Positions 55,335-63,940 of a stretch of DNA of 64,000 bases are shown in pieces. The DNA comes from Cellulomonas fimi (lineage in GTDB: Bacteria; Actinomycetota; Actinomycetes; Actinomycetales; Cellulomonadaceae). A model generated the notes under the pieces. It had not been told where the DNA came from. It did no database searches and saw only the letters and a list, made by a program, of their open reading frames with translations. The DNA lies in the NCBI RefSeq assembly GCF_012952065.1, contig NZ_JABCJJ010000011.1, positions 1 to 64,000 on the forward strand, written 5' to 3'. Made by a program: the position numbers and the translations under genes. Every line of letters begins with the position of its first letter. Position 1 is the stretch's first letter.

Positions 55335-56939
55335 TCAGGCGAGGGGCTTGACCAGGGGAAAGAGGATCGTCTCGCGCACGCCGAGCCCGGTGAGGGCCAT
55401 GAGCAGGCGGTCGATGCCCATCCCCATGCCACCTGCGGGCGGCATGGCGTACTCCATCGCGGTGAGGAAGTCCTCGTCCAGGGCCATGGCCTCGTCGTCC
55501 CCGGCCGCGGCGAGCAGGGCCTGCGCCTCGAACCGCTGCCGCTGGATCACGGGGTCGACGAGCTCGGAGTACGCCGTCGCGAGCTCGAACCCGCGCACGT
55601 ACAGGTCCCACTTCTCGACCTGACCGGGCTCGGTGCGGTGGTCCCGCGTGAGGGGCGACGTCTCGACCGGGTAGTTGCGCACGAACGTCGGCGCGTACAG
55701 GTGGTCACCGACGAGGTGCTCCCAGACCTCCTCGACCAGCTTGCCGTGGTTGACCTTCGCGGGGTCGACGGCGATGCCGAGCCGGTCGGCGTGCGCGCTG
55801 AGCTCCGCCACCGACGTCGAGGCGGTGATCTCCTCGCCGAGCGCGTCCGAGAGGGAGTCGTACAGGCGCAGGGTCGTCCACTCGCCGCCCAGCTCGTACG
55901 GCTCACCGTTCGGGAGGGTCACGCTCGTCGTGCCCAGCACGTCGAGCGCCGCGCGCTGCACCAGGTCCTGGGTGAGGGTCGCCATCGTGTCGTAGTCGCC
56001 GTACGCCTCGTACGCCTCGAGCGAGGCGAACTCGGGCGAGTGCGTCGAGTCGACGCCCTCGTTCCGGAAGTTGCGGTTGATCTCGTAGACCCGCTCGACC
56101 CCGCCGACCACCGCGCGCTTGAGGAACAGCTCGGGCGCGATGCGCAGGTAGAGCTCGAGGTCGAACGCGTTCATGTGGGTCGTGAACGGGCGGGCCGACG
56201 CCCCGCCGTGGATCGTCTGGAGCATCGGCGTCTCGACCTCGAGGTAGTCGCGTCGGTGCAGGTTCTCGCGGATCGAGCGCACGACGCCGGCCCGCAGCCG
56301 GACCATGTCGCGGGCCGCCGGGCGGGCGATGAGGTCGACGTACCGCTGCCGGACGCGCGCCTCCTCCGACAGGTCCTTGTGCAGCACCGGCAGGGGGCGC
56401 AGGGCCTTCGCCGCGAGCTGCCAGTCGTCGGCCATCACGGAGAGCTCACCGCGCCGCGAGCTGATGACGCGGCCGTGCGCGTAGAGGTGGTCGCCGAGGT
56501 CGACGTCGGCCTTGAACCGTGCGAGCGACTCCTCGCCCACCGCCGCCTGGCTCAGCATGACCTGGAGCCGGGACCCCTCGCCCTCCTGCAGGGTGACGAA
56601 GCAGAGCTTGCCGGTGTTGCGCAGGAACACGACGCGGCCGGCGACGCCGACGACGTCGTCGGTCTCCTGACCCGCCTCGAGCTCGGGGTGCGCCGCGCGG
56701 ACCTCGGCGATGCCGTGCGTGCGCGGGACCGAGACGGGGTACGCCTCGCCGCCCGCGGCCAGGATCCGCTCGCGCTTCTCCCGGCGGACCCGCATCTGCT
56801 CGGGCAGGTCGTCGGCGGCCGGGGCCGCCCCGGCCGGCCCCGTGGGAGCGGCGACGGCCGACCGGTCACCGCCCGAGGCAGCGGTGGTTGCGGCGTCGGC
56901 GGTGGGGACGGTGGGGACGGTGGGGTCGGACGAGGTCAC
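55335..56939 (-). CDS. lysS: Lysyl-tRNA synthetase (class II)
   Basis: The 534-residue class II enzyme has a Thr/Pro/Ala-rich N-terminal extension (1-45), the OB-fold anticodon domain, motif 2 ([20 protein letters not shown]) and motif 3 ([20 protein letters not shown]). It charges tRNA-Lys. A GTCCCCACC unit is repeated near the start (56907-56933) and encodes the TVPTVPT stretch. GTG 56939 is leaderless. Confidence 0.96.
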
Positions 56940-56945
56940 CGCGTG

Positions 56946-56951
56946 ATCCTA
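56946..56951 (-). promoter_or_regulatory. -10 box TAGGAT, leaderless start of lysS
   Basis: TAGGAT is followed by 6 bases and GTG 56939 on the minus strand. Confidence 0.6.
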
Positions 56952-56987
56952 CCGACCGGCTCGCGCCCGTCCCTGGCGCCGCCGACG

Positions 56988-57911
56988 TCACGACCGCGCG
57001 ACGAGGTCCAGCGCGAGGTCGAGGATCGGCGAGGAGTGCGTGAGCCCGCCGACCGACAGGTAGTCCACCCCCGTGGCCGCGACCTGCGCGGCGCGGTCGA
57101 GCGTGAGGTTGCCGGTCGCCTCGAGCTCGACCGGGCCGGTCTCGGCCTCCCGCGCCCGCACCGCCGCGACCACCTCGCGCAGCACGGGCACGGGCATGTT
57201 GTCGAGCAGCAGGAACCGCGCCCCGGCGTCGAGCGCCTCGAGCGCCTGCTCGCGGGTGTCGGCCTCGACCTGCACGACGACGTCCGGGAAGCGGGTGCGC
57301 ACCGCCGTCACCGCGGCGCTCACCGAGCCGGCGGCGACGACGTGGTTGTCCTTGACCATCGCGACGTCGTAGAGCCCCATGCGCTTGTTGGTGCCGCCGC
57401 CGCAGCGCACGGCGTACTTCTCGAGCGCGCGCAGGCCCGGGGTCGTCTTGCGCGTGTCGAGCACCTTCGCGCCGGAGCCGGCGAGCGCCTCGGCCCAGCG
57501 GCGCGTGTGCGTCGCGACCCCGGACGCCCGGCTCGCGAGGTTGAGGACCGTGCGCTCGGCCACGAGCAGCACCTGGACCCGGCCACGGACGACGGCGAGG
57601 ACGTCGCCGCGAGCCACGGCTGCGCCGTCGGGCACGTGGAGGTCGACCTCCGCCCGGGGCAGGCCGAGCCGGTCCGCGACCTGGTCGAGCACCTCGGCGA
57701 CCGCGACGAGGCCCGCGACCACGCCCGCCTGCCGCGCGACGAGGTGCGCCGCGCCGGTCTCGTCGGGCGAGACCGTGGCCTGCGTCGTGACGTCGCGCCC
57801 GGGCGCCGGCCCGAGGTCCTCGTCGAGGGCGCGGGCCACGACACCGGCGAGCCAGCCGTGGTCGAGCGGCTCGAGGGCGGGCGCGGGACGGGCGGCGGGG
57901 CGGACTGTCAC
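56988..57911 (-). CDS. nadC: Nicotinate-nucleotide pyrophosphorylase (carboxylating)
   Basis: The 307-residue enzyme has ALDEDLGPAPGRDVTTQATV, LNLASRASGVATHTRRWAEA, LDTRKTTPGLRALEKYAVRC, GGGTNKRMGLYDVAMVKDNH and VDYLSVGGLTHS. It makes nicotinate mononucleotide from quinolinate and PRPP in de novo NAD synthesis. GTG 57911 is leaderless with its own -10 box, fitting its separation from nadB by 3.9 kb. Confidence 0.95.
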   Translation of the reverse strand: MTVRPAARPAPALEPLDHGWLAGVVARALDEDLGPAPGRDVTTQATVSPDETGAAHLVARQAGVVAGLVAVAEVLDQVADRLGLPRAEVDLHVPDGAAVARGDVLAVVRGRVQVLLVAERTVLNLASRASGVATHTRRWAEALAGSGAKVLDTRKTTPGLRALEKYAVRCGGGTNKRMGLYDVAMVKDNHVVAAGSVSAAVTAVRTRFPDVVVQVEADTREQALEALDAGARFLLLDNMPVPVLREVVAAVRAREAETGPVELEATGNLTLDRAAQVAATGVDYLSVGGLTHSSPILDLALDLVARS

Positions 57912-57917
57912 GCGGTC

Positions 57918-57923
57918 ACGGTA
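57918..57923 (-). promoter_or_regulatory. -10 box TACCGT, leaderless start of nadC
   Basis: TACCGT is followed by 6 bases and GTG 57911 on the minus strand. Confidence 0.6.
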
Positions 57924-58020
57924 GCGGCGGGCAGGAGCACGCCTGACCTGCCGATGTCGAGCGCGTTGGTCACGAGCACCTCCCCTTCCCGCGCGCCTGC
58001 TCCGGCTGCCACCCTCGAGC

Positions 58021-59460
58021 ATGGTTCCCGACGACGCCCCGCCCGCACCGGCAGCGCCCCGTCCGCGTGGCGGGCCGCTCGACACCGACGCACTCCTGCG
58101 CGAGGCGGCGGACGCCGCGCTCGCGTACGCGGCCTCGGTCGACGGCCGGCGCGTCGCTCCGGACGCCGACGCGGTCGCCGCGCTCACGGCGTTCGACGCG
58201 CCCCTCTCCGACGCGGGTACCGACGCGGCGGACACGCTGCGGCTGCTGCGCGACGTCGGCGGCCCCGCGACGGTCGCGAGCACCGGGCCGCGGTACTTCG
58301 GCTTCGTCACGGGCGGAACCCAGCCGGCCGCCCTCGGAGCCGCCTGGCTCGCGGCGGCCTGGGACCAGAACGCCGCGCTCCCCGTCATGTCTCCCGTGGC
58401 GGCACGTCTGCACGACGTCGTGCGTGGGTGGCTCGTCGACCTGCTGGGGATGCCGGACGGCACCGCCGTCGCGTTCGTCACCGGCGCCACCGTCGCCAAC
58501 GCGACCGGGCTGGCCGCCGCGCGCGACGCGCTGCTCGCCCGGGCGGGGTGGGACGCCCAGGCGGACGGGCTCTTCGGCGCGCCCGCGATCGACGTCGTCG
58601 TCGGGGAGCGTGCGCACTCGACGCTGTCGAAGTCGCTCGGCCTCGTGGGGCTCGGCCGCTCGCGCGTGACTGTCGTCCCCGCGGACGACCAGGGTCGGAT
58701 GCGCGCGGAGCTGCTGCCCGAGCTGCTCCCCGAGCGGGCCGGGCCCGGGCCGGTGCTGGTCTGCGCGCAGGCCGGCGAGGTCAACACGGGCGCCTTCGAC
58801 CCGTTCGACCGGCTCGCGGACTGGGTCGCCGCGCGCGGCGGCTGGCTCCACGTCGACGGCGCCTTCGGGCTCTGGGCGATGGCCGACCCGACCCGACGGG
58901 ACCTGGTGCGCGGCCTCGAGCGCGCCGACTCGTGGGCGACCGACGCGCACAAGTGGCTCAACGTGACCTACGACAGCGGGATCGCGTTCGTCCGCGAGCC
59001 GGCCGACCTGCGCCGCACGTTCGCCGCCGTGGCCGGCTACCTGCCGTCCGACGTCGGCTTCGAGGCCATGCACCACACGCCGCAGTCGTCGCAGCGGGCA
59101 CGCCAGGTCGAGGTGTGGTCGGTGCTGCGGACGCTCGGCCGGCGCGGGATCGCGGACCTGGTCCAGCGCGCGTGCGACGCAGCGGTGCTGATCGCCGACC
59201 GGCTGCGGGCGGGGGGCCTCGAGGTCCTCAACGACGTGGTGCTCAACCAGGTCCTCGTGCGGTGCGACGACGGCCCGACGACGCAGGCGCTCGTCGCCGC
59301 GGTCCAGGCGGACGGCCGGATCTGGGTCGGCCCGACGTCGTGGGACGGCGCGGCGGCCATGCGCATCAGCGTCTCGTCGTGGAAGACCGACCTCGACGAC
59401 GCCGCGTTCGCCGCCGAGGTGATCCTCGGCTGCGCGAACCGGGTCCGCGCGACGAGGTGA
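58021..59460 (+). CDS. PLP-dependent group II decarboxylase-like protein
   Basis: The 479-residue protein matches the PLP-dependent group II (aromatic amino acid / glutamate-type) decarboxylases. Visible motifs are TGPRYFGFVTGGTQPAALGA, FVTGATVANATGLAAARDAL, WLHVDGAFGLWA and the Schiff-base Lys in ATDAHKWLNVTYDSG. It probably decarboxylates an L-amino acid; the substrate cannot be read from sequence. It is divergent from nadC and the first gene of the plus-strand block between nadC and nadB. No strong ribosome binding site precedes ATG 58021. Confidence 0.85.
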   Translation: MVPDDAPPAPAAPRPRGGPLDTDALLREAADAALAYAASVDGRRVAPDADAVAALTAFDAPLSDAGTDAADTLRLLRDVGGPATVASTGPRYFGFVTGGTQPAALGAAWLAAAWDQNAALPVMSPVAARLHDVVRGWLVDLLGMPDGTAVAFVTGATVANATGLAAARDALLARAGWDAQADGLFGAPAIDVVVGERAHSTLSKSLGLVGLGRSRVTVVPADDQGRMRAELLPELLPERAGPGPVLVCAQAGEVNTGAFDPFDRLADWVAARGGWLHVDGAFGLWAMADPTRRDLVRGLERADSWATDAHKWLNVTYDSGIAFVREPADLRRTFAAVAGYLPSDVGFEAMHHTPQSSQRARQVEVWSVLRTLGRRGIADLVQRACDAAVLIADRLRAGGLEVLNDVVLNQVLVRCDDGPTTQALVAAVQADGRIWVGPTSWDGAAAMRISVSSWKTDLDDAAFAAEVILGCANRVRATR

Positions 59461-59477
59461 ACCCTGCGACACACTGG

Positions 59478-59528
59478 CCGCAGTGACGGACCGGCCGCAG
59501 TGACGGACCGGCCGCGGTGACGGACCGG
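59478..59528. repeat. 17-bp tandem repeat, three copies
   Basis: CCGCAGTGACGGACCGG occurs three times in a row (59478-59494, 59495-59511, 59512-59528); the third copy has one change. It lies between the decarboxylase and the MFS gene. Confidence 0.85.
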
Positions 59529-59644
59529 CGGCGAAGGCGAGACCGGTGTCCCGCAGCCTGGGTCGCCGCCGTCGTGCTCCGATGCCACAGTGGTCGGGAA
59601 GCTCTGCCGATGATCGCGGACGGTGGGTACCGGAGGGCAGCATC

Positions 59645-60988
59645 ATGGACCGCGCCGGGCATGCGCGGGCCGACGACGACGCGGGGGCGGTCGACCCGAC
59701 GACGCCCGGCTCCGAGCACCTCCCCGAGGCCCGCGACCGCGAGGAGGCGCCGCGTGCCCGGCCCTGGCGCGGCCGGATCCTCTTCTTCGTCGGACTCATG
59801 CTGCTGGCGCTGTCCCTCCGTCACGCCGTCACGGGAGTCGCGCCCCTGCTGACCCGCATCGAGCAGGAGATCGGTCTCGACACGTTCGGCGCCACGATCC
59901 TGGGGATGCTGCCGACGATCGCGTTCGGTCTGGCGGGGTTCGTCGCGCCGGGGTTCGTCCGTCGCTACGGTCCTACGCGGGTCGCCGTCGTCGCGATGCT
60001 CGTGGGTGCCGCCGGCACCGTGGTGCGTGTGCTGGGGAACTCCGACCTGGCGTTCCTGGCCTTCGGGTTCGTCGCGCTCTTCGCGATGGGTGTGGGCAAC
60101 GTCGTGGGCCCACCGCTGGTCAAGCAGTGGTTCGGTGACCGGCAGGCCACGGCGATGTCCGTGCTGACGCTGCTCACCCAGGCAGGGGCGACCATCCCTG
60201 CACTGCTCGCGGTCCCCGTCGCGAACAGCCTGGGGTGGCGCTTCTCGGTCGGTTCCTGGGGCGGGCTCATGGTGCTCGCCGCGCTGCCCTGGATCGCCGC
60301 TGCGGTGCAGGAGCGCAACCGCGCCGCCGACCCCGCTGCCGCCGCGACACAGGAGTCGCCGAAGGTCGGCATACGGACGCTGCTGACCAATCCGACGTCC
60401 CTCGGCGGGGCGATCTTCTACAGCATGGCCGCGCTCAACACGTACGCGATGCTCGCCTGGATGCCCGTGATGTTCCAGGACCTCGGCGCCACCGAGGCGC
60501 AGGCCGCGGGCACGTACTCGATCTTCACGTTCCTGACCCTGCCCATGGCACTGGTCACCCCGATCATCACGTCCCGGCTGCGCAGGCCGTTCGTGATCGG
60601 CCTGCTGTTCCCTGTCGTCCTGGCCGTCGGGTACCTGGGGATCATCGCCGCGCCTTCGGCGGGGGTCCTGTGGGCGTTCGTCCTGGGCGTCTCGGGCGGC
60701 GCGTTCCCGTTCGCCATGGTCATGTTCAACCTCCGCACCCGGACGCCGGAGGGCTCCGCGGTCGTCACCGGCTTCAGCCTCGGCGTCGGTTACGCCGTCG
60801 GAACCGTCGGCCCGTTCCTCGGTGGGCTGCTCTCGAGCGCCACCGGCGGATGGACCGTCCCCCTCCTCGTCTTCGTCGCCTCCGCGGCCGTCATGGTCGT
60901 GGGCGCGTGGCTGCTCACCCGCGACCGCCTCTTCGAGGACGGCGCGACCTTGCCCAACGACCGGACCACCGAAGGAGAAGCATCGTGA
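59645..60988 (+). CDS. Major facilitator superfamily transporter
   Basis: The 447-residue protein has a charged N-terminal leader (1-40) and twelve predicted transmembrane helices starting LFFVGLMLLALSLRHAVTG. GFVRRYGPTRVAVVAMLVGA is the loop 2-3 region. It resembles the CynX/NimT-type MFS group (small anion or nitroimidazole-type exporters). GGAGGG precedes ATG 59645; the reading from 59546 adds a poor leader. Its stop overlaps the SDR gene. Confidence 0.87.
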   Translation: MDRAGHARADDDAGAVDPTTPGSEHLPEARDREEAPRARPWRGRILFFVGLMLLALSLRHAVTGVAPLLTRIEQEIGLDTFGATILGMLPTIAFGLAGFVAPGFVRRYGPTRVAVVAMLVGAAGTVVRVLGNSDLAFLAFGFVALFAMGVGNVVGPPLVKQWFGDRQATAMSVLTLLTQAGATIPALLAVPVANSLGWRFSVGSWGGLMVLAALPWIAAAVQERNRAADPAAAATQESPKVGIRTLLTNPTSLGGAIFYSMAALNTYAMLAWMPVMFQDLGATEAQAAGTYSIFTFLTLPMALVTPIITSRLRRPFVIGLLFPVVLAVGYLGIIAAPSAGVLWAFVLGVSGGAFPFAMVMFNLRTRTPEGSAVVTGFSLGVGYAVGTVGPFLGGLLSSATGGWTVPLLVFVASAAVMVVGAWLLTRDRLFEDGATLPNDRTTEGEAS

Positions 60989-61746
60989 CCCAGCATGTCC
61001 TGATCACAGCCGGTGCAGGCGGCATCGGCCGCGCCATCGCCCAGGCCTTCGTGGCCGACGGCGCCCGCGTGCACGTCGCGGACATCGCCGACGACGCCGT
61101 CGCGGAGGTGGTCGCGAGCTCCGACTCCGTCACCGGGTCCGTGACGGACGTGAGTGACGAGGGCGCCGTCGACCGCCTCTTCGAGGACGTCCGCCGCGAC
61201 CTCGGCGGGCTCGACGTGCTCGTCAACAACGCCGGGATCGGAGGGCCGACCACGCCCGCTCATGAGCTTCCCTTCGAGGACTGGCGCGCCGTCGTCGACG
61301 TCAACCTGCACGGCACCTTCCTCGTCACCCAGCGCGCCATCCCGCTGCTCAAGGAGTCCGACGCCGGCTCGATCATCACCATGTCGTCCCTCGCGGGCCG
61401 GTTCGGGTACCCGAACCGCATCGCGTACGCGGCGACCAAGTGGGCCCTGGTCGGCTTCGCCAAGACCCTCGCGATGGAGCTGGGCGAGTTCGGCATCACG
61501 TCGAACACGATCCACCCCGGCGCGGTGGCCGGGGACCGCATCGACCGCGTCCTCGCCGGCCGCGCCGAGGCGACCGGGCGGCCGCTCGACGACGTCAGGA
61601 CCGAAGCCCTCGGGAACCAGTCGATCAAGCAGTTCATCGACGCCGCGGACATCGCCGCCCTGGTGCTGTTCCTCACCGGCCCCCACGGCCGGACCATCAG
61701 CGGCCAGATGCTCCCCATGGACGGCGACTCCAAGTCCACGCAGTAG
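60985..61746 (+). CDS. Short-chain dehydrogenase/reductase
   Basis: The 253-residue SDR has the nucleotide motif LITAGAGGIGRAIAQAF, NNAGIGG, catalytic Ser in TMSSLAGRFG, and YAATK (Tyr and Lys). It closes with ISGQMLPMDGDSKSTQ. The substrate is unknown; it is coupled to the MFS gene through GTGA, so the pair may import and oxidise or reduce one compound. Confidence 0.9.
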   Translation: MTQHVLITAGAGGIGRAIAQAFVADGARVHVADIADDAVAEVVASSDSVTGSVTDVSDEGAVDRLFEDVRRDLGGLDVLVNNAGIGGPTTPAHELPFEDWRAVVDVNLHGTFLVTQRAIPLLKESDAGSIITMSSLAGRFGYPNRIAYAATKWALVGFAKTLAMELGEFGITSNTIHPGAVAGDRIDRVLAGRAEATGRPLDDVRTEALGNQSIKQFIDAADIAALVLFLTGPHGRTISGQMLPMDGDSKSTQ

Positions 61747-61805
61747 CCGTCCGGCAGCTGGTCGTCCCCGATCCGACCCCGGCGGGGGACGAGGCGCTCG
61801 ACAGG

Positions 61806-63491
61806 TCAGCCGAGCGGCGCGCGCTCCGTCCTGAGCCCGCCGTCCGCCGTGAGGGACGACTCGAGCCGCACCCGCCACGCCTCGTCGGGCACCGGGAAGT
61901 CCGCCCGGAAGTGCCCGCCGCGGCTCTCGGTCCGGAGCAGGGCGGTCGCCGTGAGCACGGTCGCGGCCTGGTGGAGGTTCGTCGTCTCCCACTCCGCGGA
62001 CTGCGGCGCGGCGACCACGCCGGCCGCCCGGTGCGCGTCCGTCCGCACCGCGGCGAGCTCGACCTGTGCGGTGGCCAGTCCCTCCGCGGTCCGCACGACG
62101 CCCGGCCCCGACGACGCCGCCCGCTGGATCCGTGAGCGTGCGGCCGCCGCGACGAGCGCATCACCGCCGGGCCGCTCGACCGGGTCGCGGTGCGGCAGCT
62201 CGCCTGTGGCGACGCGCGACGCGATGTCGCGCGCCGCGCGCTGCGCGAACACGAGGCCCTCGACGAGCGAGTTCGACGCCAGCCGGTTGGCGCCGTGCAC
62301 CCCCGTGCACGCCACCTCGCCCGCTGCGTACAGCCCGCTCAGCGTCGAGCGACCGGACAGGTCCGTCACGACGCCGCCCGAGTGGTAGTGCTGCGCCGGC
62401 GCCACGGGCACGACGTCGGTCGTGAGGTCGATGCCGTGCTCGAGGAGCCGGTCGTGGATCGTGGGGAACCGCGCCCGCAGGAAGTCGGCACCGAGGTGGC
62501 GGGCGTCGAGGAGCACGTGGTCGGCCCCTGTCTGCGCCATCCGCCCGACGATCGCGTGCGCCACCACGTCGCGCGGCGCGAGCTCCGCCATCGGGTGCAC
62601 CCCCGGCATGAACCGCACGCCGTCGGTGTCGAGCAGGTACGCGCCCTCGCCCCGCACCGCCTCGGAGACGAGCGTGAGCTGGCCCAGCACGCCCGACCCG
62701 AGCCACAGCACCGTGGGGTGGAACTGGACGAACTCGACGTCCCCCACGCGGGCCCCGGCGCGCAGCGCGGCCGCGATCCCGTCGGCCGTGGCCTGGACCG
62801 GGTTGGTCGACGACCGGAACACCTGCCCGATGCCGCCCGTGGCCAGCACGACCGCGCGCCCCAGCGCCGCGCCGACCCCGTCGCGCGACCCCTCGCCGAT
62901 CACGTGGAGCGTCACCCCGCACGCCGCACCCGGACGCCCGTCGGGACCCGGGGCGCTCGTGAGGACGTCGAGCACCAGCGCGTGCTCGATGACCTCGATG
63001 CCCGGGTCGGTGCGCACGGCCTCGAGCTGCGCGACGAGGGCGCGCGAGATCTCGGCGCCCGTCGCGTCGCCACCCGCGTGCACGATGCGGTCGGCGTGGT
63101 GCCCGCCCTCGCGGGTCAGCGCGAGGTCGCCCGCGGCGTCGAGATCGAAGACGGCGCCCCGGGTGACCAGCTCCCGCACGCGCGCCGGACCCTCGGTGAC
63201 CAGCACCTCGACCGCCCGCGGGTCGCACAGCCCGGCACCCGCGACGAGCGTGTCCGCCAGGTGCGCGGCCGGCGAGTCCTCGGGGTGGAGCGCGGCCGCG
63301 ACGCCGCCCTGCGCCCACACGGTCGAGCCGGACGCGAGCGCGCCCTTGGTCACGAGCAGCACGCGCGGGACGCGGTTCCGCAGCTCGAGCGCCGCGCTGA
63401 GCCCCGCGATCCCCGAGCCGACGACGACGACGTCGGCCTCGGTCGTCCACCCCGGCGCCGGGGCCGCGAGCCGTCGTGCGAGGCGGGTCAC
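61806..63491 (-). CDS. nadB: L-aspartate oxidase
   Basis: The 561-residue FAD enzyme has the dinucleotide motif [34 protein letters not shown], and [20 protein letters not shown]. It oxidises L-aspartate to iminoaspartate for quinolinate synthesis. GTG 63491 overlaps the panD stop. It is third in a panC-panD-nadB run; its partner nadC lies 3.9 kb away and nadA is not in the window. Confidence 0.95.
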
Positions 63492-63940
63492 CGCCGGGAC
63501 CCGTGGAGGGGCAGCCCGCTCGGGCGCAGGCCGCCGTGCAGGTCCGCGGCGGCGTCGGGCACCTGACCGGGATCGTCCGAGAGCTCGACGACCCGGTTCT
63601 GCTCGTCGACGAACACCACGCTCGGCGCGTAGGTGCGGGCCTCGGCGTCGTCCATCGACCCGTAGGCGATGAGGATGACGACGTCGCCGGGGTGCACGAG
63701 GTGCGCGGCCGCGCCGTTGATGCAGATCTGGCCGGAGCCGGGCTCGCCCGCGATCACGTAGGTCGTGAGCCGGGCGCCGTTCGTCACGTCGACGACGTCG
63801 ACCTGCTCGCCCGGGAGCAGGTCCGCGGCGGCGAGCAGCGTGGAGTCGACGGTCACCGAGCCGACGTAGTGCAGGTCGGCCTGCGTCACGGTCGCCCGGT
63901 GGATCTTCGACGTCATCATGGTGCGACGTCGCGAGGTCAT
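63488..63940 (-). CDS. panD: Aspartate 1-decarboxylase
   Basis: The 150-residue proenzyme has the self-cleavage site Gly27-Ser28 in [15 protein letters not shown], which yields the pyruvoyl cofactor, and [20 protein letters not shown] with [20 protein letters not shown]. It makes beta-alanine for pantothenate. ATG 63940 overlaps the panC stop; a second ATG pair seven codons on ([13 protein letters not shown]) is an alternative start. Confidence 0.95.

Follow-up and report, generated by a model that had tools for sequence, protein, structure and literature searches.

The nadB-nadC junction of Cellulomonas fimi and its relatives as a probable reused slot for accessory genes

Why the genes of a pathway gather, separate and rejoin is an old question. 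Lawrence and Roth are said to have included, in 1996, a deletion step in operon formation. In the relevant passages of PMC7760734, the authors state that to their knowledge there was no prior evidence of operons forming via progressive deletion, and offer one possible haloarchaeal example. For leaderless actinobacterial genes, an excerpt of PMC3160421 describes a TA-like signal, TANNNT, ∼12 bp 5' of the start codon. Here we analyze a stretch of 64,000 nucleotides from Cellulomonas fimi (contig NZ_JABCJJ010000011.1, positions 1 to 64,000 of the forward strand; hereafter the window), in which a block of three plus-strand genes lies between nadB (L-aspartate oxidase, 61806..63491) and nadC (nicotinate-nucleotide diphosphorylase (carboxylating), 56997..57911), both on the minus strand. 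The block encodes a group II pyridoxal phosphate (PLP)-dependent decarboxylase of 479 aa (58021..59460), a major facilitator superfamily (MFS) transporter (59645..60988), and a classical short-chain dehydrogenase/reductase (SDR; 60985..61746). Reading frames and profile matches confirmed the order nadC(-), PLP(+), MFS(+), SDR(+), nadB(-), panD(-), and the names given in an earlier sequence-only reading were right.

The best explanation, which we hold with considerable confidence, is that the block is a mosaic of accessory genes occupying a permissive slot, and that the leaderless promoter of nadC underlies this tolerance. The basis is gene content, the absence of orthologs of the MFS-SDR pair in a family search, tree placement, the promoter motif and the junction statistics. 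In the family of the window genome (f1), nadC would commonly have its own leaderless promoter, by which nadC-lysS would be separable from panC-panD-nadB and nadC would stay on, so that the nadB-nadC junction would tolerate DNA in either orientation, with panD-nadB and nearly always nadC-lysS staying closed. The window slot would then have been filled by a PLP gene with its nearest relatives in its own family and by a coupled, probably foreign, MFS-SDR pair. More broadly, the junction is probably a reused slot, opened, filled, emptied and closed repeatedly in relatives, the nadC promoter being the probable reason.

The junction, the derived block and the candidate nadC promoter

Intervals were taken from 132 genomes with both nadB and nadC in the lists, a set not chosen for gap length; the two genes share a contig in 125. 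The gap is ≤300 bp in 68 of these pairs, 300-1000 bp in 12, 1-3 kb in 9, 3-8 kb in 21 and 8-20 kb in 14 (thus >1 kb in 44/125), and one pair is in opposite orientation. The adjacent junctions served as controls in fetched family genomes, which were partly chosen for long nadB-nadC gaps. Here panD-nadB measured ≤300 bp in 71/71 cases and nadC-lysS in 82/87 (two at ∼0.9 kb and three with an inverted nadC), against 46/111 for nadB-nadC (14 at 301-1000 bp, 47 at >1 kb and 4 inverted). In four g21 genomes (L179, L183, L216, L217) nadC has the reverse orientation to nadB, which suggests independent transcription of nadC. In an order-wide sample of 149 genomes, nadC was above threshold in 44 and nadB in 42. 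Outside the family both genes were found on one contig in 31 genomes, 27 of them with a distance of ≤330 bp; the four wide gaps (2.5-7.0 kb) belong to a single genus of family f9. Family f12 nests within f1 in both trees.

The genus of the window comprises five genomes, including the window genome. In G004 nadB and nadC are 140 bp apart; G001 carries an HTH_20 regulator and a different MFS gene before nadC, with nadB on a separate contig. That G001 contig (L121:1-378) breaks off past short tandem repeats, a few hundred bases 3' of nadB. G002 and G003 gave no nadC match and nadB-like matches of 41-42% only; both assemblies are rated 100% complete, which points to a possible loss of de novo synthesis of nicotinamide adenine dinucleotide (NAD). 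In both trees G001 and G004 group with the window genome in one clade (support 100). The next neighbor is the compact G016 in one tree (91), and the second tree gives no resolved neighbor; both trees were built from nadB, nadC and lysS themselves by quick methods. Among the 221 genomes of f1 that were searched (best candidates scored per genome: SDR 12, MFS 7, PLP 7), the SDR was found at E≤1e-60 in one, the window's own. A derived origin of the block in this lineage is supported, because G004 is compact within the same clade and the SDR is confined to one family genome. The sequence-only reading had placed the block, by insertion or rearrangement, into an ancestral pan-nad operon. The derived state agrees with this, the arrangement not being shared family-wide; the operon may however already have been split, as an older block separates nadB from nadC in part of f1 and in f9 (see below).

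The hexamer TACCGT (57918..57923, minus strand) lies 6 nt 5' of the nadC GTG and is consistent with a putative leaderless promoter, as previously proposed; measured by the definition excerpted from PMC3160421, the window nadC has its TANNNT ∼12 bp before the start codon. Other loci were scanned for TANNNT at a distance of 5-8 nt from a following ATG or GTG that is in frame and open, within an interval beginning 130-140 bp ahead of the expected start and ending 75 bp past it. The motif was present at 65/72 distinct nadC loci, 63 of them with a spacing of 6-7 nt, compared to a mean of 0.55 and a maximum of 2 in block shuffles. Sorted by nadB-nadC gap, and with additional compact genomes and other families of the order included, it occurred in 7/14 loci at <50 bp, 10/18 at 50-99 bp, 12/16 at 100-375 bp, 2/2 at 376-1000 bp and 44/48 at >1 kb. 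Twenty-nine of 48 compact genomes carry it, mostly 6-7 nt before the nadC start, G004 among them; the share is 26/37 in f1 and 3/11 in other families (p 0.016, excluding seven later-scanned genomes). The motif is thus commonest in open slots, yet is also found in many closed ones. Because it precedes nadC in many compact genomes including G004, the window block appears not to have forced nadC to gain a promoter, contrary to what had been claimed. No -35 consensus was visible across 85 aligned sites, and sigma-70 and intrinsic-terminator scans of both strands of 56900-62000 returned no site.

Several observations weigh against the permissive-slot explanation. More than one start codon per gene can count in the scan. 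As 19/48 compact and 4/48 long-gap genomes lack the motif, it is not universal and not a strict requirement; seven additional genomes with a gap of ≤375 bp include four that have it (G068, G200, G202, G230), with G159, G199 and G227 lacking it. The same scan gave 11/55 for nadB, 23/70 for lysS and 0/8 for panD, so that lysS carries the motif in about one third of its loci and is still mostly closed to nadC, G178 and G181 (g25; L249, L250) having ∼0.9 kb between the two genes. The genomes are related by descent, and the junction and motif counts are thus not independent. Finally, the block bears no trace of its arrival route: its edges share one 10-bp inverted match and no other repeats that could be insertion scars.

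Slot contents and the history of the junction

Slot genes were called by codon score, clustered and scanned against Pfam, mostly with one representative per cluster. Across relatives, the slot holds at least 10 unrelated contents. In 23 g20 genomes (L144-L166) one to three GH10 proteins with carbohydrate-binding domains stand in a row (39 slot proteins in the cluster, of which 5 were scanned, all 5 being GH10); these giant genes run on the nadB/nadC strand, and several include a polysaccharide deacetylase domain. Besides GH10, a two-component pair is found in G111 and a GH64 protein in G081. In g8 and g22 the opposite strand encodes CsoR, CoA-disulfide reductase (CoADR) with rhodanese, a methyltransferase and a rhodanese. 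The g6 slot, and partly that of G030, contains LamB/YcsF, carboxyltransferase and biotin carboxylase subunits, an Nramp-like carrier and a GntR regulator; a fused hydantoinase/oxoprolinase occupies that of G006 and G017. Further contents are a VanY peptidase (G215, G028), NMT1/ABC/luciferase-like genes (G290, family f9), an ABC-2 exporter with DUF4097 next to an inverted nadC (G182), DUF5701 (G011), a protein without a Pfam match (G063, G066), and the HTH_20 and MFS genes on the slot side of the G001 nadC. Related genera thus have either hydantoinase/oxoprolinase (L172, L173) or PxpABC-like genes (L167-L171, L174) in the same slot; both systems are present inside genus g3 and are unrelated to each other. 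From their family names we take both to be candidate 5-oxoproline-splitting systems.

Three f9 genomes also have the CsoR-CoADR block on the opposite strand of their nadB-nadC interval, with the same genes, place and orientation as g22 and nine g8 genomes. In the CoADR tree f9 and f1 are separate; identities across the split are 61-67%, near the 67 and 69% measured for nadB-nadC-lysS (two pairs compared). We give even chances to an explanation by which the forebear of f1 and f9 already had this block, which was the source of the nadC promoter, compact f1 operons having re-closed and the window block having either taken the place of earlier content or filled anew a slot that had closed. Partial forms occur in the same place and orientation, and the reading frames checked in them are open: CsoR and rhodanese in G074, rhodanese alone in G060, CsoR alone in G068, rhodanese alone in five of the six g16 genomes examined (there are seven in g16), and rhodanese accompanying DUF5701 in G011. 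The g8 partial forms nest among full ones (G074 with G069, 100; G068 with G035, 93; G060 beside G069 and G074, 99), and there loss is a simpler history than one in which single end-genes were gained repeatedly; in g16 the direction is less sure because that group has no full block. G159, in which 17 bp without the motif separate nadB from nadC, nests within the rhodanese-only g16 genomes (91). Together, the nested partial states and G159 suggest rejoining by stepwise deletion, and the higher share of the motif among compact f1 genomes also favors an early split.

Against it, three separate gains would also need few steps, f9 includes compact members, the motif is absent from the three f9 genomes carrying the block, full blocks are missing from the clade of the rhodanese-only g16 genomes, and no relic of the block is seen in the clade made up of the window genome, G001 and G004. 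The odds are similarly balanced for a junction that records closing from the full CsoR-CoADR-rhodanese block through CsoR and rhodanese to one gene and then to 17 bp, the internal promoter being lost, and of a slot filled again in other lineages by unrelated genes, the window block among them. The opposite history, a compact operon ancestral in the family with all blocks added later, is weakened by the CoADR block in a second family and by the partial forms.

Plain drift of gene order, with nothing special about the nadB-nadC junction, is a rather doubtful alternative. According to parts of PMC7760734, haloarchaeal gene strings do open, widen and gain internal promoters; however, drift does not account well for the closed state of panD-nadB and nadC-lysS next to a junction that is ≤300 bp in fewer than half of the part-selected genomes and in 68/125 of the unselected ones.

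Origin and possible function of the block genes

Within the permissive slot that we favor, the block genes appear to differ in origin. The PLP gene has matches in 51/221 family genomes, only three of which are close (G067 78%, G029 70%, G005 67%). All three stand outside the slot, those of G029 and G005 on contigs without nadC and that of G067 ∼2.9 Mb from nadC on a 4.5-Mb contig. The MFS gene has matches in 72/221; the best besides itself, among the matches listed, is 42% identical. An adjacent SDR-MFS pair in Georgenia, in turn, is 69-74% identical to the window proteins. Gene trees group the MFS with two Georgenia genes (100), and the SDR with those and a Micrococcus metagenome-assembled genome (93). 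The pair is therefore probably of foreign origin, with the nearest relatives found in Georgenia; the direction of transfer is one that we infer.

Odd composition was rejected as a sign of recent arrival: the MFS and SDR genes have 71% G+C compared to 74% for the window, inside the range of its other genes. A plasmid origin of the pair was likewise rejected, the SDR having two plasmid matches at E≤1e-60, both <60%; among plasmid records, none reaches 80% coverage of the block. A profile scan found no mobility genes among the three block genes, no tRNA gene is nearby, and by the presence of an integrase, a transposase or edge repeats the block does not qualify as a mobile element.

The PLP protein belongs to the group II decarboxylase family (PF00282, 138 bits, cut-off 27); its HKW at residue 310 and HVDG at 277 we read as the PLP decarboxylase motifs, HKW presumably holding the PLP lysine. 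It falls below the PanP equivalog (109/606 bits) and diaminobutyrate decarboxylase (110/900 bits) cut-offs, and reaches no NCBIfam cut-off. The MFS protein (PF07690, 89 bits; ATG start with GGAGG upstream) is nearest to the CynX/NimT type (TIGR00896) yet below its cut-off (200/406 bits), with nearly the whole model aligned. The SDR (PF00106, 180 bits, cut-off 26.6) has YAATK at 148, NNAG at 81 and VADI at 31, the Asp of which we take to suggest NAD as cofactor. It is below the 3-hydroxybutyrate dehydrogenase cut-off (TIGR01963, 189/307 bits) and passes that of the FabG-like PRK12826 subfamily (NF009466, 282 vs 222 bits), a broad label that does not imply a substrate. Sequence searches of the PDB returned general classes for the SDR and PLP proteins and no match for the MFS.

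The MFS and SDR genes share a 4-bp overlap (GTGA) and seem to be coupled, and an MFS relative adjoins the SDR in 12/27 loci with an SDR identity of ≥52%. Recurring neighbors of SDR relatives are an acetoacetyl-CoA synthetase (8 loci), an aromatic-acid-type symporter slightly under its cut-off, IclR or MarR regulators and an amidohydrolase, each scanned in one representative; a carnitine-dehydrogenase-like enzyme, below its cut-off, is near them in four loci, both Georgenia loci included. From such hydroxy-acid- or acetoacetate-type neighbors, the pair would most likely import a small hydroxy acid and oxidize it with NAD+, the substrate being a guess. It counts against this that no acetoacetyl-CoA synthetase scored above cut-off in the source genome, where the control genomes all fell below as well; a complete acetoacetate route was rejected on that result. 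That the three genes, all on one strand in the window, were inserted as a single selected pathway of uptake, oxidation and decarboxylation, with the nadC promoter arising as a rescue, is very improbable: none of 47 SDR loci has a PLP relative of >100 bits, none of 34 PLP loci (29 genomes, most with ∼1.5 kb of flank) has an SDR or MFS relative, a 184-bp gap with a tandem repeat splits PLP from MFS, the PLP gene and the pair have different nearest relatives, and the motif is already present in compact G004. A functional link of the decarboxylase to the pair, as put forward in the sequence-only reading, is thus not supported.

The repeat in that gap has a 17-bp unit in 3.2 copies (59476..59529, plus strand), and the three exact copies of its core in the window are all located there. 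A GC-rich hairpin (61762..61792, no strand) lies between the convergent ends of SDR and nadB; it was rejected as a terminator (z -0.9, 38/200 shuffles folding as well or better). The slot is anchored upstream by nadB (NF005867, 771 bits, cut-off 639) and downstream by lysS, encoding lysine-tRNA ligase (55335..56939, minus strand; NF001756, 624 bits, cut-off 468). The nadC product (TIGR00078, 286 bits, cut-off 198) is the sole QRPTase_C match in the source genome (profile search, E≤0.001), and nadA is on a different contig. The aspartate 1-decarboxylase gene panD (63488..63940, minus strand; TIGR00223, 166 bits, cut-off 106) overlaps nadB by 4 bp and panC by another 4 bp, as had been noted; the final 20 codons of panC, which alone are inside the window, match the end of G004 panC.

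Comparison with known systems

A literature search combining nadB, nadC and Cellulomonas found no paper, as did one for any three of CoA-disulfide reductase, CsoR, rhodanese and nadC. Among the top matches listed for hotspots, gene insertion, operons and Cellulomonadaceae, none is on the nadB-nadC junction by its title, and a search on leaderless genes, internal operon promoters, nadC and actinobacteria yielded unrelated work only. Accessory genes in an operon junction are an ordinary type of event, here at an unusually informative junction: a single point of the NAD string is seen open, filled, half-emptied and closed among related genomes, and as the candidate internal promoter can be measured, the sequence in which promoter gain, insertion and closing took place is directly testable.

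Like the SDR-MFS pair of Georgenia, Arthrobacter and Corynebacterium, the window pair is adjacent and on one strand; its order is reversed, MFS first and then SDR, and the regulator, acetoacetyl-CoA synthetase and carnitine-dehydrogenase-like genes near the relatives' pairs are not beside it. With integration hotspots the junction shares a single site of varied accessory content between core genes; in contrast to them, the window block has no mobility gene, nearby tRNA or edge repeats (bar the 10-bp inverted match), and the slot contents are mostly metabolic. The leaderless genes covered in the excerpt of PMC3160421 share the TANNNT position with the candidate promoter described here; unlike in that excerpt, the motif lies within a gene string, at the very point where that string breaks. 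Models of operon insertion, splitting and rejoining have in common with this locus the foreign genes in the string, the internal promoter and the closing by deletion; what distinguishes it from these life-cycle models is a single junction with at least 10 unrelated contents and partial states.

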